Source of the DNA: Bifidobacterium mellis
GTDB taxonomy: Bacteria > Actinomycetota > Actinomycetes > Actinomycetales > Bifidobacteriaceae
NCBI RefSeq assembly: GCF_000967265.1
Contig: NZ_KQ033885.1
Coordinates: 1,655,538-1,719,537 of the forward strand
Direction: 5' to 3'
DNA: 64,000 nucleotides
The notes below the pieces were generated by a model. That model was not told the DNA's origin and made no database searches. It saw only the letters and a program-made list of their open reading frames with translations. A program made the position numbers and the translations under genes. Below are positions 47,216 through 57,040 of this stretch, piece after piece (the first letter of the stretch is position 1; each line of letters begins with the position of its first letter).

Positions 47216-50200
47216 ATGGGGAATGCTCATGGCATCCGCAGACTGATGACACTGACAGCCATGGTTGGGTTGGCACTGATCGGCGCATCAACAGGAGCAT
47301 ACGCAACCACAGGCGATACGGCGCCTTCGCCTACCACGGAAACGCCCTCTCCCAGCCCGTACAGCAGCGTGAGTCCATTGCTCAGGACGGGCGGCGAGGC
47401 AGAGGCCGGGGCCGCTGCTCCGACCGCCACACCATCACCGCTGGCCAGCAACAATCCCTCGCCTTTCAAGTCCATCCTACCGTTCAACGAGAAAAAGACG
47501 GACAAACCCATCAGGAACAGCTCACCGAGAGCCAAGTCGCCACAGACCAGGGATTCATCCTCATATACCCTTACCTTCGAGCCTGACGGGGGCTCGCTGA
47601 CGTCCGGCTCACCGGCCTTGAGCCAGACAGTAACCTCAGGCCATCTGGCATCACCTCCCACCGTCGCCAAATCAGGTTACCTGTTTGACGGATGGTTCCT
47701 GAAGGGCTCCGACGTGGCCTATGACTTCGGCAAGCCGGTCACCAGCACGCAGTCGCTGACGGCCCATTGGTCATCGGTCAACGACGCCCAGTGGACGACG
47801 GCCGACGTCAGCGGCGACGACACCGGGGGCTCTGCAATCACACTTACACCCCCCAAACCCAGAGGGGTGAGATTCGCACAGGTCAGCGCCGGTCATGACC
47901 ACACCCTGGCCGTAGGCTCGGATGGCCACGTTTATGCCTGGGGCGACAACAGCAAGGGCGAGCTTGGCGACGGCACCACAACCAACAAAAACACGCCAGT
48001 GCGGATTACCGAAAACGAGGCCATCAAGGGAAAGACCTTCATATCCGTCAGCGCGGGAACCACATTCTCCATGGCCCTAGCCTCGGACGGCACCGTCTAC
48101 ACCTGGGGCGACAACAGTCGCGGCGAACTCGGCAACGGGTCCACCACGAATTCTTCAGTACCGGTAAAGGCGAATCTTAATGCCACCATCACCGCCATCA
48201 GCGCCGGATACTGGCATGCCATGGCCCTGTCCTCCAGCGGGACGATCTACACATGGGGAGACAACGAATACGGCCAGCTCGGCAACGGGCACACGGGCGT
48301 CAACGTCAACTCTTCACCAGCAGCGGTCTCTTCATCCGGCGTCACCTTCACCACCATCAGTGCCGGATACGATTTTCAAACGGCGCTGGACAGCCAAGGA
48401 CATGCCTACGCCTGGGGACGCAACCAGGGCGGCCAGCTCAGCATCGGCACCATGGACGGCACCAGCAGTGGTTCCAACGTCTACACTCCATCGCGCATTT
48501 ACGGCGACTCGACCGGCAACCCAGACAGCACAGTCTACACCGACATCGATGCAGGGTACCTGCACGTCCTTGCACTGAGCAATACAGGCAAGGTGTACTA
48601 CTGGGGTTATCCCCTGACCAAGGGCAATGACGCCAATACCGACAGCGTTCACTCCTTCTACCCCAGTCTGTTAAGCTGGCCCACGGAAGCGGCGACGCCT
48701 GTTTCAGTCAGCGCCGGGGACTACTCCTCTGCGGTGGTCGACTCTGCGGGCAGCCTGTACATGTTCGGCAGCAATTCCAGCGGCCAGCTGGGCGATGGAA
48801 CCACAAATCCTAAATCAATCATGACCAAGGTGAGCCTGACAGGCGTCACAGTCGCCGCATTCGATGTCTGCCGGCACAGTCTGGCCATCGGCTCGGACGG
48901 GCTCCCCTACAGCTGGGGGGAAGCGAAAAGCGGCAAGCTGGGACAGGGCAGCAGCGGGCCTCAAAGCGGCTCACAGACCAAGCCTGCGGCGGTCAGCCCA
49001 CCCCAGATAGATCTGGCCAAGGTGACCTTTGGCAAGACTGATGTTGCCAAGACCGACAGCGGTAGTCTGATCAGCCGAACTTCAGCAGGTGACGACGCTT
49101 GGAGTGCGAATACCCCATGGAAGGTCACTACCCCACACCACACTTACGGAACCACCAAGATCAGGATCAACGACGGTCAATGGTCCATTGGCGGTGCTGC
49201 ACAACAGGGGCAAAGCATTGGCAACTATACATTCACACCCACTGCCCAGAAGATCACCTTTGATTCGGACGGAGGCTCATCAGCCTCGGACCAGTTCGTC
49301 ACCGCAGGCAAGCAGGCTTCGCCTCCCACCGTCACCAAGGCAGGTTTCCTGTTCGACGGCTGGTTCATCAAGGAGGCAGACGGCAGTTCCAATGTGGCCT
49401 ACGACTTCAGCAGTCCGGTCACCGGGCCACTGAATCTGAAAGCGCATTGGTCTTCGTCAGACATGAAATGGAAGACCTCGGATGCCCTCCATGGCGATGA
49501 CACCGGTGGCTCCACGATTACTCTGACTCCTCCCAAACCCAGAGCAGTAAGGTTCACCCAGGCCAGCGCCGGGCGCTACCACACCCTGGCTGTGGGTTCG
49601 GACGGACACGTCTACGCTTGGGGAAATCAGGCCAGCGGCGGACTGGGCAACAGCAAAGACTCAGGCACGGCGACTACACCAGTACGGATTACTGAAAATG
49701 ACGCCATAAAAGGAAAGATCTTCATAGCCGTCAGCGCCGGCGACACCTATTCCATGGCCCTGGCATCGGACGGCACCGTCTACACCTGGGGCAACAACGA
49801 CAAAGGCCAGCTCGGCAACGGCACCACAGGAGGCTACTCAGCCGAACCAGTAAAGGCACAGACAGGCAATGCCAAAATCACCGCCATCAGCGCCGGACGG
49901 TCATACGCCATGGCCCTGGCATCGGACGGCACGGTCTACACCTGGGGCAACAACCAGTACGGTCAGCTGGGCAACGGCGGCTCAGACAACAGCAGCCATT
50001 CCTCCCCTGCCAAGGTCACGACGCTGTCCGGGATCACCGCCATCAGCGCAGGGTTCACTACAGGTACTGCCCTGGACAGTCAAGGCCACGCCTGGGCCTG
50101 GGGCCACAACGACAAGGCACAGCTCGGCAACGGCACCCTTAATGACAATCCGACACCGGCACGCGTCCAAGACCTGAACACCGGACAGCCTGATACGCGG

Positions 50201-52702
50201 TTCTATATCGCCATCAGCGCGGGCTATCAGCATGTGCTGGCGCTCGATACGGATCATAACGTCTATGGATGGGGTTCCAGCACCGCCGTCGGCTCCTCGA
50301 CTGATACCAATGTCAGCACGAAAGGATCCACTAAGATCAGCTTCGGAGACGACGCTGTCAACATCACCGCCATCAGCGCGGGCGACGATGGATCCGAAGC
50401 CATAGACGACAACGGAAAGCTCTACACCTGGGGCAATCAGGGTTACGGCCAGCTAGGCAACGGCAATAGTGATGCATGGCAGACCAATCCGAAAGCCATC
50501 ACTCTGGCCCAATCGGTGAAGGCCTGCGCGGTAGCCACCTCCGGCCATCACCAGACGGCCATCGGGTCTGACGGATTGCTCTACACCTGGGGATACAACT
50601 ACTACAACCAGCTGGGGCAGAGCATATCGGCATCAAGGCCCGGCACCACACAGCCACCACAGATCACCCTGACCAAGGTGACCTTCGGCACCATGGCCAG
50701 CAGCACCAAGCCAGCCACGAAACTGACCCAGACAAGCAAAGACACCTGGGATGAAAACCGGGATTGGACCTTCGTGACGCCCGCGTACCCGTACGGCCCG
50801 TCCAGTTTCACCATCACATGGAACATTGCCGGCGATGCCGGGGACTCAAGGCAGACACAGCAGTTCGACTACACCTTCGATCGGACCAAGAAACGCATAA
50901 CGCTTGACCCTGAGGGAGGTACTGGAGCTGCATGGACAAGCAAAGACATCGAGGAAGGCGAATTGGTACCCCGACAGACCGTGGCCAAGACGGGCTTCCT
51001 GTTCGACGGGTGGTTCGTCAAAGCGGCTGACGGCAGTTCAAATGTTGCCTACGACTTCGGCAAGCCGGTAACGGACCCGTTGACCCTGGTCGCGCACTGG
51101 ACGCTTTCGACTCAAATGACCGTCGACCCAACCGTCAGTCCGTCCACTGGCGGATACCAGGTCACCATCACTCCGCCCTCGCAGCGCGGCATCCGCTTCG
51201 CCCAGGTCAGCACAGGCAAAAACCATTCCTTGGCTGTCGGCAGCGACGGCAATGCCTACGCCTGGGGAAACAACAGCACGGGACAGCTCGGTAACGGCAG
51301 CAAGGACAGCAGCAAGACGCCCGTCCAAGTGAAGAAGCCATCCGACGCAGGTACCGACTTCGCCTACACCCAGGTAAGTGCTGGATATGGATTCTCGTTG
51401 GCCCTCGGCAGTGACGGCAATGCCTACGCCTGGGGAGACAACGGCAGGGGGCAGCTCGGCAAGGGCACCGCAGGCGGCACCAACACGACGCCCGTCCAAG
51501 TGAAGAAGCCATCCGACGCAGGTACCGACTTCGCCTACACCCAGGTAAGTGCAGGAGGCTATCATTCCCTGGCCATCGGCAAGGATCATCAGGTCTACGC
51601 CTGGGGAGACAGGAGCAACGGCGGACAGGTGGGCGACGGCAAAACGAGCGGGAACGCCCCTGCCCCTGTAGCTGTCAACGCAAGCGCCACCAGTCCTGGA
51701 TTCCAGGCTAGACAGGTCAGTGCGGGATATCAGCACTCTCTGATTATCGGCATAAGCGGGCAAACCTACGCCTGGGGATACGGCGACAGCGGTAGACTGG
51801 GCAACAATGCCAAATCCTCACAGGCCACTCCTGTGTCGGTATCGTCACCCGTGCAATATGAGGACGGGTCAATGGGATTCTTCGCCACTCAGGTCAGCGC
51901 AGGAGGCTCGCACTCCCTGGCCATTGGCAGAGACGGCAAAGCCTATGCTTGGGGTGCGAATACCGATGGGCGACTGGGTACCGGAGACACCAATGATGCC
52001 GCAATACCAACCCCGGTGGCCGATCCCGACGGAGGTAGCGATGGATTCAAACCCACCGAGATCAGCGCCGGAGGATGGTTCTGCGCAGGAATCGACGACA
52101 AAGGGCGAATCTACACCTGGGGAAACAACGGTCAAAACGCCCTGGGCAATGTCTCCATCTCAGGATCCATCAGCACATCCCCCGTTTTGGTGAGCAAGGA
52201 CGGTAGCACCATACAGATAAGTGCAGGCGAGCGCCAAGTCCTGGCCATCGACTCCGACGGCATGGCCTACGGTTGGGGTGACAATGGCGGCAAGCAGCTC
52301 GGCACCAATTTGGACAGCGACTCAGTCAAGGCGGCCACCTTGGTCTGCCCGCCGCAATTGACCATCAGCTCGGCCACAGTCGGCACGGATCCGCATACTG
52401 CATCAGTTCTTGAACTGACCCGGAGCAGCACAGCCGACACATGGGGATCATGGAATACCTGGACCTTCTATACCCCAGCCTTCAAGGCAGGCCAAACAAC
52501 AGTCAACATCACCTGGAATGTGGGCCAGGGCAATCCTCATACCGAGAACCTGCCCTTTACCTACAGGGATATTCTGCCCCTGACCGGCAGCCAGGGTCTG
52601 CTCGTCATACTGCTTGTAGGACTTTTCGTGACGGTGACAGTCCTGGCAGCGAGGCAACATTACCTGGAAACAGCCCATCAGGCTCCAGCGAGCACGCGCT
52701 GA
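47216..52702 (+). CDS. giant LPLTG surface protein: three InlB-B/TIG/RCC1-propeller units
   Basis: An 1828-residue wall-anchored protein. The ATG at 47216 has GGGAGGA 8 bases upstream; a signal peptide (about 1-33) and a Pro/Ser/Thr linker follow. Three units come next, each with an InlB B-repeat (starting near residues 117, 678 and 1226; motif GYLFDGWF), then GGsxITLTPPkxRGvRF, then exactly seven RCC1 repeats ([24 protein letters not shown]), then VTFG...W...TP.Y..G...I.W..FTY. The flanks of each RCC1 block look like the two halves of one TIG/IPT domain. LPLTG is at 1787-1791, then a membrane helix and a tail. RCC1 folds form seven-bladed propellers that bind proteins. Adhesion or matrix binding is inferred. 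Paralogue at 53288-57040. Confidence 0.9.
51316..51552 (+). repeat. 66-bp exact direct repeat inside the third RCC1 block
   Basis: 51316-51381 and 51487-51552 are identical over 66 bases, 171 bases (57 codons) apart, one RCC1 repeat length. Nearby stretches (51238 on, 51409 on) are almost identical too. This marks a recent in-frame duplication of one propeller blade. Confidence 0.93.
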
Positions 52703-52704
52703 AA

Positions 52705-52752
52705 TTTCATGGCCGACGGCATAGGAGTTGACCCAAGCCGTCGGCCATGAAA
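52705..52752. terminator. bidirectional terminator hairpin
   Basis: A perfect 16-bp stem (TTTCATGGCCGACGGC, 52705-52720, with 52737-52752) around a 16-base loop, between the convergent surface protein and chorismate mutase genes. Confidence 0.88.
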
Positions 52753-52767
52753 CTACGACGGATTTCC

Positions 52768-53124
52768 TCAGCGTGAATTGGTCTGGCCGGCCAGCCGTTC
52801 GTGGTCGCGCTTGGCGGCGTCAGCCACCAGATGCAAATAGGCCTCGGCCAGATCAGGATCCAGCCCGTAATCATCAGCCTTGTCTCGCAGGGCCGCTATC
52901 TGTGTGCTCTCCCGGTGCATATCCGCCGAGGCGAATCCTGCCTGGGCCTTGAGCAACCCAATGCGGTGGGTCACCCTGAACCGCTCGGCCAGCATGGCGA
53001 CAATGGCGGCATCGATGGTGTCCACATCGGCACGCAGTTCCTCCACCTGGCGGGCGGCCTGGGCCCGTGGACCCCCGCCCTGCGCCTGATCATCAATCAC
53101 TGTTTCCATCTTCTCAGAGCTCAT
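52768..53124 (-). CDS. chorismate mutase, AroQ type
   Basis: A 118-residue all-helical protein of the AroQ class, which converts chorismate to prephenate for Phe and Tyr synthesis. Conserved features: LRADVDTIDAAIVAMLAERF (first helix with substrate-binding Arg), RIGLLKAQAG, and the C-terminal helix with E/Q residues. The first 25 residues are Gln/Gly-rich. The start could also be the ATG at codon 6, behind GAGAAG. It sits between two giant surface protein genes and is transcribed against the first of them. Confidence 0.9.
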   Translation of the reverse strand: MSSEKMETVIDDQAQGGGPRAQAARQVEELRADVDTIDAAIVAMLAERFRVTHRIGLLKAQAGFASADMHRESTQIAALRDKADDYGLDPDLAEAYLHLVADAAKRDHERLAGQTNSR

Positions 53125-53287
53125 GAAATACCAGTCTAATCAAACGCCCCAGGCGACTATGCCAGGCCCCTCTCCACTTTGACACTGGTGTTATTGTAGT
53201 GGATGGAATTATTGACTCTTGGGGAGAGTCTCGTTCGCCTACACCTGCCTATACAAGTGCCGGACGCATGGGGGAGGATGCCTTCAC

Positions 53288-56200
53288 ATGAAGATGGTAC
53301 GTAGTCGTCGCGTCACAGTGCTCGTCAGTCTATGCTGCGTCCTGGTCGCCTGCAGCATGCTCGGCCTGCAGTTTGGCCAGGCAGCGCCGGAATCCAATGG
53401 GACCGCAGTCGCAACTCAGGGAACTGGGGCAATTGGTACTGGAGCCAATACCCCCGGACAGATTCCTTCGGTTTCCCCCGGTCCGTCATCATCGCCATCC
53501 GGCATTCCCACCCTGGCCAATGGCTCTCGTGCGACGGCAACAGGACAATCGCCTGCTGCCAGCACATCGCCCACCTCGCCGTCCTCATCATCGCCCGGCA
53601 CAGCAGGTTCCCCGGAGCCGACCTCAACCGCCTCTTCCCCCTCGAATACCACCAGCCACACAGTCACTTTCGACTACAACATGCAGTCTGCAACTCCGAC
53701 AACTTCGACTGTGGCTGATGGCGCCCAGGTTGCGCGCCCTAGTCCTGAACCCACCCGCCGAGGATTCGTTCTCGAAGGATGGTTCGCGGGCAAAGTAGCC
53801 TACGACTTCTCCGCTCCTGTGCACGCGAACCTGACCCTGAAAGCCAAGTGGGCCCGGGCCGACCAGACCTGGACCATGCAGCCGCAAGAGGGACCCGAAT
53901 CAGGAGGTACCGGGGTAACACTTACCCCGCCCCCACCTTCCGGTGTCCGTTTCAGCCAGGTCAGTGCAGGCATCCGGTTCTCACTGGCTTTGGGATCGGA
54001 TGGCAACGTCTACGCCTGGGGCTATAATGCTGGTGCTCAGCTGGGCGATGGCACTGTTGTCAACAAGTCAACGCCCATAAGGGTGCCCCGGCCCGAAGAA
54101 GCCCGCAATGACAAGGATTTTCGGTTTGTCAGCGTCAACGCTGGTCGGTTCTTCAGCATGGCCCTGGACAACCATGGCACCCTCTGGTCCTGGGGATACA
54201 ACTATCTGAAGACCTTGGGCAACCCCAATGTGGCTGACAGCGGCATGCATAACTATTCGGAATACCCGGTCAAGGTGATGCTGCCTGAAGGAGCGCCGAC
54301 CAGATTCACCTACAAGGCCGTCACCGGCAGTTACAATCACACCCTGGCCATAGGATCGGATGGCAACGTCTATGGCTGGGGAACCTGCAGTGAAGGAGAA
54401 ACCGGCCGCCATAAGTGCGACGGCATATGCGACTCCACGCCCAGCCTCATCCAGGGATTCGATAAGAACCACAAAATCATAGCTGTACAGGCAGGAATGA
54501 ACTACTCAACAGCTCTGGATGACGCTGGCACGGTATGGTCATGGGGAAGCAACCTTTACCACCAGTTGGATCCATCCGCCGTCGCGGTCGTAGGAAACTA
54601 TACGCCGACCAAGATCCACGGCCTTGACAAGGTCCATGTGGTGGCCATCGCAGACGGCTTCGAAAACACCCTGGCCCTGGATGACCAGGGAAGGGTCTGG
54701 ACCTGGGGGATGAACGAAAACGGCCAGATCGGCAACGGGTCAAGTGCAAGCAAGACCGAGGCGTTCAAAGACCCCGTCCAGGTCAGCTTCCCCCAGGGGA
54801 CCAGAATCACCGCCATCGCTGGTGGCTGCCATTACGGTTCCAACCATGCCATAGCTCTGGATTCCAATGGCAATATCTGGACCTGGGGCGACAATAGCTA
54901 CGGACAGATGGGCGACGGCAAAACCTCCGCAGCAGACAGCCCCCAGACCACTCCAGAACGCTTGGAGGATCCGAACCTTGCCGGCCGACACTGGATCAGT
55001 ATCGACGCTGGCGAGGATTTTAACCTGGCCATCTGCGACGACGGCCTGACCTACAGCTGGGGACGCGACGACATGGGTCAGCTGGGTCAGGGCACCAGCG
55101 GCGATGGCGCCCATAACCGGCCCTCTGCGGTCGCCTTCCCCTGGCCGGCGAAACTGACCGGACTCAAATTCGACACAACGGATATCACCACCGGAATGAA
55201 GGCGCAAAAGAACGGGACCTGGACGGCTACCACCCCGCCGCACGCACCAGGGCTGGTGGATGTGGCCCTGGCGTGGACTTTGAACGACCAAGAACAGACC
55301 CAGGTCCACCTGCCCTTCCGCTATCTGTCGAACGGTGTGACCGTAACCTTCCAGTCGGAGAGCGATTCACCGGCGCCACCCAGCCAGAGTCTGGAAGCGG
55401 GAGAGCGAGCAGTCCGCCCCAGCGCTGATCCGACCAAGGCCGGCTGCCGCTTCGATGGTTGGTTCCTGGGCAAGACCGCCTACGACTTCTCCAAGCCAGT
55501 CACCAGCTCCATGACGCTCAAGGCCCACTGGAGCCCTGAGAATCAGAACTGGAGCATGACCCCAGACCATGGAACCGAGATGGGCGGGACGAAGGTCACC
55601 CTGACGCCGCCAGCCCTGCGGGGCATTCGCTTCAGCCAGGTCAGTGCCGGTTCCCACTGGTCCCTGGCCCTGGGGTCCGATGGGAAGGCCTACGCCTGGG
55701 GCAAGAACAACAGCGGCCAGCTGGGCAATGCGAACATCGCCAAGGGCGGCACCAGCACCATGCCGGTCCGAGTGGACATACCCGAGAAAGCGGAGGCCAA
55801 CTTCGTCTTCACCCAGGTCAGCGCAGGCGGTGACTATGGCCTCGCTCTAGGCTCCGATGGAAAGGTCTACGCCTGGGGCAACAACGATGTCGGCCAGCTG
55901 GGCGACTCCACCCTGAATGCCCAAAGCCGGCCCCATCCGGTACCGGGTCTGCCGGCCACAATCCAGTCCATCAGCGCCGGCGGCGGACATGCCTTGGCTC
56001 TGGATTCCCAGGGACGAGTCTGGTCCTGGGGCGCCAACCAATACGGGCAGCTGGGCCTGGATAATGCCGGCGGCGATACCATCTCGCCAGACGGGCGAAC
56101 CAGCCCTGCCATGGTGACCGGAATCCCGGCGACCATAACGGCAATCAGCGCCGGAAGCCGGTATTCACTGGCCATGACCGTGGATGGACAAGTCTACGCC

Positions 56201-57040
56201 TGGGGCATCAATGATGCCGGCCAGCTAGGCGATCCCACCCTGCCGGTCAGCGAGGACGGCGCCAACCCCACACCGTCTGCCGTCCAAGGACTGACGGTCG
56301 AGATGATCGCCGTCAGCGCCGGAGACCACCAGGCTCTGGCCCTGGATTCCCAGGGACGCATCTGGACCTGGGGACAGGTCAAGGGCGAGAACAAGAAAAC
56401 CCCTGCCCTATTGACCCTTCCTGACGGACTGCCGACCGGATTTGCCATTACACAAATCAGTGCCGGCACCGGAGCATCCTCCGCTTTGGGCTCCGACGGA
56501 CGGATCCTGACCTGGAGCAATGCCGCAGAAGGGACTGATCCCGCATACTTGACCAAACCCAAGGACGTGCCTGCAGATTTCAGCTTCACTGCCGTCTGCA
56601 CGGGCGACCCGAGCTCACTGGCCCTGGGCTCCGACGGTCTGGCCTATGGATGGGGCGCCGACGATTCCGGTCAGCTGGGTGACGATCAGTCCGGACCGGA
56701 CCTGAACAGCAAGACGCCGCAGGCTGTCGTGATCAGAAGCCTGGTCAAAGCGGTCACTTTCGCGGGACTGTCTGCAGAAGGAACACCGCAGTACCAGAAT
56801 GGCGCCTGGTTGGTACTCACTCCACGCTACAGGCCCGGACAGGTGGATACCGTCATTCATTGGAGCCTGGTCGGCGTGGACCAGCAGGATCAGACCCTGC
56901 CCTACACCTACGATCAGTTGGCCGTCCTGCCCCTGACCGGCAGCACCGGCATAATCCTGCTGGTCATGGCTGGCTTGCTGGCCATGGGAGCTGTTATGGC
57001 TGCCAGATTCCAGCGGCGGGAAAACAAGATGACAGCATGA
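53288..57040 (+). CDS. LPLTG surface protein: two InlB-B/TIG/RCC1-propeller units
   Basis: A 1250-residue paralogue of the 47216-52702 product. The ATG at 53288 follows GGGAGGA by 9 bases and starts a signal peptide (MKMVRSRRVTVLVSLCCVL). A Ser/Thr/Pro-rich linker (about 35-120) leads to two units, each with an InlB B-repeat (from about 125 and 684; GFVLEGWF, GCRFDGWF), ESGGTGVTLTPP/EMGGTKVTLTPP, seven RCC1 repeats, and a closing TP.Y.PG.VD..L.W...FRY-type strand set. LPLTG lies at 1214-1218, followed by a membrane helix and basic tail. In two blades the WG pair is altered (WGQVKG, WSNAAEG). It is likely a surface-exposed binding protein; the ligand is unknown. Confidence 0.9.
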   Translation: MKMVRSRRVTVLVSLCCVLVACSMLGLQFGQAAPESNGTAVATQGTGAIGTGANTPGQIPSVSPGPSSSPSGIPTLANGSRATATGQSPAASTSPTSPSSSSPGTAGSPEPTSTASSPSNTTSHTVTFDYNMQSATPTTSTVADGAQVARPSPEPTRRGFVLEGWFAGKVAYDFSAPVHANLTLKAKWARADQTWTMQPQEGPESGGTGVTLTPPPPSGVRFSQVSAGIRFSLALGSDGNVYAWGYNAGAQLGDGTVVNKSTPIRVPRPEEARNDKDFRFVSVNAGRFFSMALDNHGTLWSWGYNYLKTLGNPNVADSGMHNYSEYPVKVMLPEGAPTRFTYKAVTGSYNHTLAIGSDGNVYGWGTCSEGETGRHKCDGICDSTPSLIQGFDKNHKIIAVQAGMNYSTALDDAGTVWSWGSNLYHQLDPSAVAVVGNYTPTKIHGLDKVHVVAIADGFENTLALDDQGRVWTWGMNENGQIGNGSSASKTEAFKDPVQVSFPQGTRITAIAGGCHYGSNHAIALDSNGNIWTWGDNSYGQMGDGKTSAADSPQTTPERLEDPNLAGRHWISIDAGEDFNLAICDDGLTYSWGRDDMGQLGQGTSGDGAHNRPSAVAFPWPAKLTGLKFDTTDITTGMKAQKNGTWTATTPPHAPGLVDVALAWTLNDQEQTQVHLPFRYLSNGVTVTFQSESDSPAPPSQSLEAGERAVRPSADPTKAGCRFDGWFLGKTAYDFSKPVTSSMTLKAHWSPENQNWSMTPDHGTEMGGTKVTLTPPALRGIRFSQVSAGSHWSLALGSDGKAYAWGKNNSGQLGNANIAKGGTSTMPVRVDIPEKAEANFVFTQVSAGGDYGLALGSDGKVYAWGNNDVGQLGDSTLNAQSRPHPVPGLPATIQSISAGGGHALALDSQGRVWSWGANQYGQLGLDNAGGDTISPDGRTSPAMVTGIPATITAISAGSRYSLAMTVDGQVYAWGINDAGQLGDPTLPVSEDGANPTPSAVQGLTVEMIAVSAGDHQALALDSQGRIWTWGQVKGENKKTPALLTLPDGLPTGFAITQISAGTGASSALGSDGRILTWSNAAEGTDPAYLTKPKDVPADFSFTAVCTGDPSSLALGSDGLAYGWGADDSGQLGDDQSGPDLNSKTPQAVVIRSLVKAVTFAGLSAEGTPQYQNGAWLVLTPRYRPGQVDTVIHWSLVGVDQQDQTLPYTYDQLAVLPLTGSTGIILLVMAGLLAMGAVMAARFQRRENKMTA

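Follow-up and report, generated by a model that had tools for sequence, protein, structure and literature searches.

Plexins and MET carry a sema propeller and IPT domains in sequence along the chain, and in the integrin β subunit an I-like domain is inserted within an immunoglobulin (Ig)-like hybrid domain. Here we describe two surface proteins encoded at positions 47,216–57,040 of a 64,000-nucleotide stretch of Bifidobacterium mellis DNA (NCBI RefSeq assembly GCF_000967265.1, contig NZ_KQ033885.1, positions 1,655,538–1,719,537 of the forward strand; hereafter ‘the window’, to which all coordinates without a contig label refer). Together they contain five units in which a complete RCC1 propeller is very probably nested within a TIG/IPT domain (PF01833). 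They resemble plexins and MET as surface proteins that combine a propeller with IPT domains, which are consecutive there, whereas here the propeller interrupts the IPT domain. The likeness to integrin β is that of a ligand-binding domain, putative in our case, nested in an Ig-like domain; the inserted fold is unrelated and the host is a different one. The propeller is of the same RCC1-like type as those of UVR8 and BLIP-II, neither of which is known to be framed by an Ig domain or anchored to a wall. BLIP-II is secreted and binds a protein (PMC9218822, PMC6121496), and it has three-stranded blades (PMC6121496), whereas those found here are four-stranded.

The gene family itself is already known. 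For B. asteroides PRL2011, a 2012 paper (PMC3447821) reports RCC1 together with PF09479 in 19 copies, and a 2015 paper (PMC4449606) gives 7–24 genes per genome for bee Bifidobacterium, with 2–4 domains of seven repeats on average and an LPxTG motif. In these accounts Flg_new precedes each RCC1 domain, and the genes are clustered and said to be under diversifying selection. The window proteins agree with this description, with Flg_new ahead of each RCC1 domain, about seven repeats, 2–4 domains and LPxTG (by eye in protein 1). The word ‘IPT’ does not occur in the available text of PMC3447821, nor ‘TIG’ in that of PMC4449606, and no propeller within a TIG domain was found in the literature searched, which was mostly open-access papers, partly in excerpt, with preprints outside it. 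The original remark that no described protein with this nesting was known thus holds for the arrangement, as far as that literature reaches, but not for the family. Relative to the printed accounts available, we add the TIG/IPT halves, the nesting and a map of variable positions; the arrangement and an apparently shared socket are new.

Organization of the units

All five units have the same order. An InlB B-repeat comes first and a short stretch resembling GG-x-x-VTLTPP second; the seven-bladed RCC1 propeller is next, and a segment of the form V-x-F...TP...G...Y-x-Y is last. All features lie on the + strand. In unit 1 of protein 1, the InlB B-repeat (PF09479; 47564..47773, from Pfam and alignment by eye) is followed by the N half of TIG (47786..47854; model strands 83–85 and 91–95), the propeller (47855..49000; alignment by eye and model, 28 strands) and the C half of TIG (49010..49246; alignment and model). 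The corresponding N half, propeller and C half occupy 49463..49534, 49535..50665 and 50666..50890 in unit 2, and 51110..51178, 51179..52360 and 52361..52573 in unit 3, with the unit 2 halves placed by alignment and the blades of both units counted by eye. The unit 3 C half matches TIG positions 24–84 (E 0.038). In protein 2, unit 1 consists of an InlB B-repeat (53657..53851; Pfam and model), an N half (53867..53932; model strands 73–75, 78–80 and 86–90), a UVR8-like seven-bladed propeller (53933..55141; model and fold search) and a C half (55148..55327; model strands 499–505, 522–525, 532–542 and 550–557). Unit 2 has its N half at 55544..55612, its propeller at 55613..56740 and its C half at 56741..56917, again from alignment and a count of blades by eye.

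The propeller has exactly seven blades per block, as originally counted: alignment by eye gives seven in all five blocks, and AlphaFold gives seven in both units modeled (unit 1 of each protein). The two models are of high confidence (predicted local distance difference test 92–93, predicted TM-score 0.91–0.92) and contain 28 propeller strands each, short strands in the N-flank and at least four strands after the propeller. For unit 1 of protein 2, the best UVR8 row of the fold search begins at residue 91, immediately after strand 86–90. The Foldseek and VIA-align lists are filled by RCC1 chains, and no Ig or TIG row is among the matches listed, so that these searches are uninformative on the frame. 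The modeled strands stand where an Ig-like TIG sandwich, with A′ paired to G, would have them, and we infer that the N-flank strand would pair with the C flank.

Complementary TIG/IPT halves flank each propeller

In the B. mellis genome, the TIG profile has eight matches at E ≤ 10. Seven lie downstream of a propeller and begin at profile position 24–45, and one lies upstream of a propeller and covers positions 6–22. By location, seven are inside RCC1 open reading frames (ORFs) and the other is in a 120-residue frame just past an RCC1 ORF that a TGA codon interrupts. One of the eight, in a paralog, passes the curated cut-off (28.6 bits).

Joined flanks, with the RCC1 block removed, were submitted singly to Pfam (TIG gathering score 20.9 bits) for ten units, namely the five of the window and five from paralogs. 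TIG was matched in six; four of these matches span the join (two at profile positions 5–84, one at 5–72 and one at 5–76), one covers the N half only and one the C half only. Among the controls, C halves alone match TIG in two of five cases, N halves alone in one of two and joins in the wrong order in two of three. Because wrong-order joins score alike, Pfam bit scores report on the presence of the halves and not on their order.

Profile comparison by hhalign, made against four contiguous TIG domains of sister genera that we chose ourselves, does follow the join. The joined-flank profile of 17 units aligns at 96.0% (E 3.9e-9) over 63 columns that span the join, and a profile made from just the five window units aligns at 94.1% (E 1.2e-7). 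A C-half profile of 14 units reaches 90.0% (E 1.7e-6). The wrong-order control, built from 11 units and so not fully matched to the 17 in the right order, reaches 76.5% (E 2.2e-5) through its C half only, and an InlB-repeat control reaches 0.2%. Among solved structures, the joined profile matches plexin-A1 (chains at 7.1e-7 and 4.1e-5) and plexin-A2 at E ≤ 0.01; the plexin-A1 chain value of 7.1e-7 sums three IPT domains, the best single domain giving 17.1 bits (E 0.048). MET (0.23) and COE1 (0.33) come next, amid unrelated weak rows. Against plexin-A1, C halves alone give E 0.99 and the five window units joined give E 0.035, through their C part.

Several observations weigh against nesting. 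A single joined flank exceeds the Pfam cut-off in one of the ten units only (a paralog, 22.1 bits), and the same unit joined in the wrong order scores 22.7 bits. None of the five window units reaches 20.9 bits; four have no TIG match, and unit 3 of protein 1 scores 17.9 bits (profile 5–84). The wrong-order profile also matches plexins (4.5e-5), which is explained by the tandem IPT domains of plexins placing a C half ahead of the next N half, and plexin E-values are therefore taken as evidence for the halves and not for their order. Covariation between the flanks is mild: z exceeds 3 in 21 of 1298 N–C pairs, 17 of 1386 N–InlB pairs and 32 of 7458 N–propeller pairs, and since the InlB repeat shows it too we leave it out of the support. 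Finally, the models were available as strand lists without coordinates, in which A′–G pairing is not seen. The prediction that the joined flanks would match TIG is accordingly borne out by profiles, which match across the join, and mostly not by single window units in Pfam. At the profile level, the complementary halves and the two alignments spanning the join argue for a propeller inside a split TIG domain.

Recurrence across genomes

Of 185 relatives the best 80 were kept, which gave 64 loci; every one of these is titled Bifidobacterium or Bombiscardovia. The loci contain 111 RCC1 ORFs and, within them, 192 units 430–640 residues long, of which a few may be counted twice where loci overlap. 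Including the five of the window, the N element is present by motif in 186 of 197 units and by eye in the other 11; the C motif is too loose to discriminate. Nearest to unit 1 of protein 2 are units of Bifidobacterium choladohabitans (97% identity), B. mizhiense (96%), B. apousia (95%) and B. asteroides (90%), which would place the window in the bee-gut asteroides group. The junction is found at E ≤ 1e-12 in 24 of 189 family genomes, 21 of them among the 27 Bifidobacterium genomes sampled and three in one other genus. In a scan of 396 phylum genomes, in which no more than 16 candidates per genome were taken to scoring, 11 have a match at E ≤ 1e-6, and near-full-length matches (starting at position 2–4 of 57) occur in the B. 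mellis genome only. Two of the partial matches (G197, positions 17–57; G176, positions 16–57) proved on reading to be plain RCC1 repeats. TIG matches at E ≤ 0.01 are present in 57 of 198 phylum genomes; those listed are near-complete, and weaker half matches fall outside the listing, so split TIG domains may occur there as well. A search for the same architecture in other genomes, as initially proposed, locates it, among the relatives kept, in Bifidobacterium and Bombiscardovia.

Some copies depart from the common form. In paralogs L012, L015, L016, L017 and L018, the propeller of the first unit is shorter and its RCC1 blades are degenerate, with both TIG halves kept. At C2:1127506-1128279 of the B. 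mellis genome (in L017), an RCC1 ORF with an in-frame TGA is followed by a TIG C half in a separate 120-residue frame; this is probably a broken paralog.

Variable positions on the propeller

Variability was mapped as weighted entropy over 216 units. The two x positions of AG-xx-H, one of which is mostly gapped in blade 3, have 3.2–3.7 bits and most x positions of WG-x-N-xx shown have about 3.2–3.6 bits, compared with 0.1–0.7 bits at the G of SDG. Mean entropies are 2.82 bits for a-b turns, 2.24 for c-d, 1.73 for b-c and 2.50 for d-a. In alignment with UVR8, the AG-xx positions correspond to W-R of its motif GWRHT, whose residues take part in dimer contacts according to PMC4501546.

Codon comparisons used disjoint pairs from the 194 units with codons. 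In 29 pairs at 70–85% identity, the amino acid differs at 51% of AG-xx, 57% of WG-x-N-xx and 20% of remaining propeller positions, and the ratio of nonsynonymous to synonymous substitution (dN/dS) is 0.84, 1.08 and 0.32, respectively, with 0.31 for TIG and 0.28 for InlB. The same three classes give 0.22, 0.45 and 0.19 in 21 pairs at 85–93%, and 0.11, 0.37 and 0.14 in 20 pairs at 93–98.5%. In a scan of 33 registers, which covers the blade outside strand d and the d-a link, the five ring positions, in AG-xx and WG-x-N-xx, rank first to fifth by amino-acid difference. Ranked by dN/dS, the leading positions are WG+1 (1.59), WG+3 (1.39), a strand-a position (1.06), the second x of AG-x-x (1.00) and another strand-a position (0.80), followed by WG+11 (0.77) and the first x of AG-x-x (0.70); WG+4 has 0.56.

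A TIG loop with other inserts in sister genera

In sister genera the TIG loop holds other domains. We hand-picked 20 split units from 11 ORFs (L100–L104 and L130–L135, from small incomplete genomes); 19 of the inserts are 234–317 residues long and the remaining one has 176, and most of the ORFs have two split TIG domains followed by one that is unsplit by motif. One has five TIG stretches (E 1.7e-32). Laminin_G_3 matches nine of the 20 inserts at E ≤ 1 (best 4.1e-8). The insert profile matches a 188-residue sialidase A chain (E 1.7e-7, positions 113–246 of 257) and, at 0.05, a trans-sialidase; we take the matched parts to be lectin (CBM40-like) domains. With flanks included, the profile matches plexin-A4 at 4–26 (0.012), plexin-A1 at 292–347 (chain 1.5e-9) and sialidase between (3.7e-8). 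The TIG loop therefore looks like a reusable socket, apparently split at the same place by a propeller or a lectin-like domain. The 176-residue insert (L104:366-893, the first in that locus) is of a different kind and sits in the same loop; a first impression that it was F5/8C-like was dropped, as it has no Pfam match and no F5/8C structure match.

The lectin-nested profile is found in five of 189 family genomes, from four other genera (G008, G014, G031 and G003; G009 weakly), and in none of 396 phylum genomes in a scan that had no positive control. In one of the five, a 3157-residue ORF (G003:C128) has matches at two places.

The surface proteins and their genes

Surface protein 1 (1828 residues; 47216..52702, + strand) and surface protein 2 (1250 residues; 53288..57040, + strand) are built alike: a signal-like N terminus and a Ser/Thr/Pro-rich spacer precede three and two units, respectively, and after these come an LPLTG motif, a hydrophobic segment and a tail of basic residues. 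The sortase motif is at 52574..52588 in protein 1 (by eye) and at 56927..56941 in protein 2 (Pfam Gram_pos_anchor, 20.6 bits, cut-off 20), both on the + strand; the B. mellis genome has two sortase matches. Pfam on the whole proteins reports RCC1 and the Listeria-Bacteroides (InlB B) repeat in both and the LPxTG anchor in protein 2, with no TIG match at E ≤ 1. The InlB B-repeat is matched in three stretches of protein 1 and two of protein 2 (96.7 and 78 bits per whole protein, cut-off 27).

The upstream neighbor is presumably a valS-like gene and the downstream neighbor a rho-like gene. Between the two surface-protein genes lies an ORF on the – strand (52768-53124) that we take to be chorismate-mutase-like. 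Because this opposite-strand ORF separates them, the two genes are probably separate transcription units.

A model for TIG-framed propellers

We propose that, after its InlB B-repeat, each unit has a single TIG/IPT domain (E-set, Ig-like) in which the propeller would take the place of the A′-B loop. The chain would enter ahead of strand a of blade 1 and exit past strand d of blade 7. By the topology of an a-b-c-d meander, the a-b turns would share a face with the c-d turns, whereas the b-c and d-a turns would lie on the opposite side, where the chain also begins and ends. With both ends there, TIG would grip the disc on the b-c/d-a face, and the a-b/c-d face would stay exposed. Moderately related units differ most at AG-xx-H and WG-x-N-xx, which would then be turns of this free face. 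On the best reading of the sequences, an Ig frame would hold the disc by its back and its front would change as the units diverge. The proteins are predicted from their motifs and the sortases to be exported and linked to the wall, where they would most likely serve as multivalent adhesins or receptors. The discs would then form a family with one frame and different binding faces, for which the host, its diet or other microbes of the bee gut are conceivable targets. A binding function remains putative, if fairly likely, and wall-anchored adhesins or receptors with TIG-framed propellers are on the whole a probable explanation. Whereas domain content, the seven blades, the complementary TIG halves, recurrence and the substitution pattern are observed, we infer the exact fold of the frame, the orientation of the disc, binding and the ligands.

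Parts of the variability data speak against this reading. By topology the d-a links belong to the frame side, and they are as variable on average (2.50 bits) as the c-d loops (2.24); the variable positions were named after the entropies had been seen on the same units, and the codon pairs pool orthologs and paralogs. AG-xx is conserved in the closest pairs although WG-x-N-xx is not, WG+4 reaches a dN/dS of only 0.56 while strand-a positions reach 1.06 and 0.80, and a dN/dS close to 1 is compatible with relaxed constraint as well as with selection. An alternative is that the proteins serve as spacers or as architecture of the cell wall, with the propeller as a bulky module whose variability reflects relaxed constraint or else escape, either from phage or from the immunity of the host. 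This explanation would account for dN/dS of about 1 at the variable positions and for the variation of the d-a links, it agrees with no ligand being known, and in its escape version it would likewise target an exposed face. Variation nevertheless alternates with strictly kept neighbors (dN/dS 1.59 at WG+1, 0.09 at WG+2 and 1.39 at WG+3), and AG-xx is kept in close pairs, so we regard it as a possible but doubtful account.

A further alternative is an ordinary propeller followed by a small self-contained Ig-like domain, with the N-flank a linker that resembles the start of TIG by chance or ancestry. C flanks alone do match TIG (28.6 bits in one paralog, two of five by Pfam, 90% by profile), the join adds little in Pfam for some units, and the fold search does not inform on the flanks. 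Yet N-flanks alone match TIG positions 5–22 or 6–22 in some units, which is the part that C flanks lack; the N element occurs in all 197 units, by motif or by eye, and is modeled as strands with high confidence; and the same split also holds an unrelated insert. We therefore consider independent domains unlikely. That a single strain recently gained a propeller in one of its TIG proteins, without wider meaning, might be suggested by the frequency of TIG matches in the phylum but is hardly credible given the junction in 21 of 27 sampled genus genomes and three of another genus, and its presence in Bombiscardovia.

Returning to the nested propeller with a free binding face, we tentatively extend it to a wider reading that we hold to be possible but less likely than not. 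In Bifidobacteriaceae the A′-B loop could be a general socket for unrelated binding folds (RCC1 propeller, LamG/CBM40-like lectin and the 176-residue insert), through which bee strains might maintain an antibody-like repertoire of discs with a variable free face and a fixed frame. On the same reading, every one of the seven blades would contribute five positions to a ring on that face, and the ring would diversify between gene copies.

Annotation domain by domain misses this arrangement, as seven of the eight TIG matches in the B. mellis genome fall under the curated cut-off. If the socket is general, it would be a natural scaffold for the display of unrelated binding domains. For bee symbionts, a gene family that has been listed but unexplained would acquire a design open to test, in which an Ig frame grips a disc from behind and the front of the disc varies. 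The design predicts which residues decide binding, and it would make the lectin-like and propeller versions functional counterparts.

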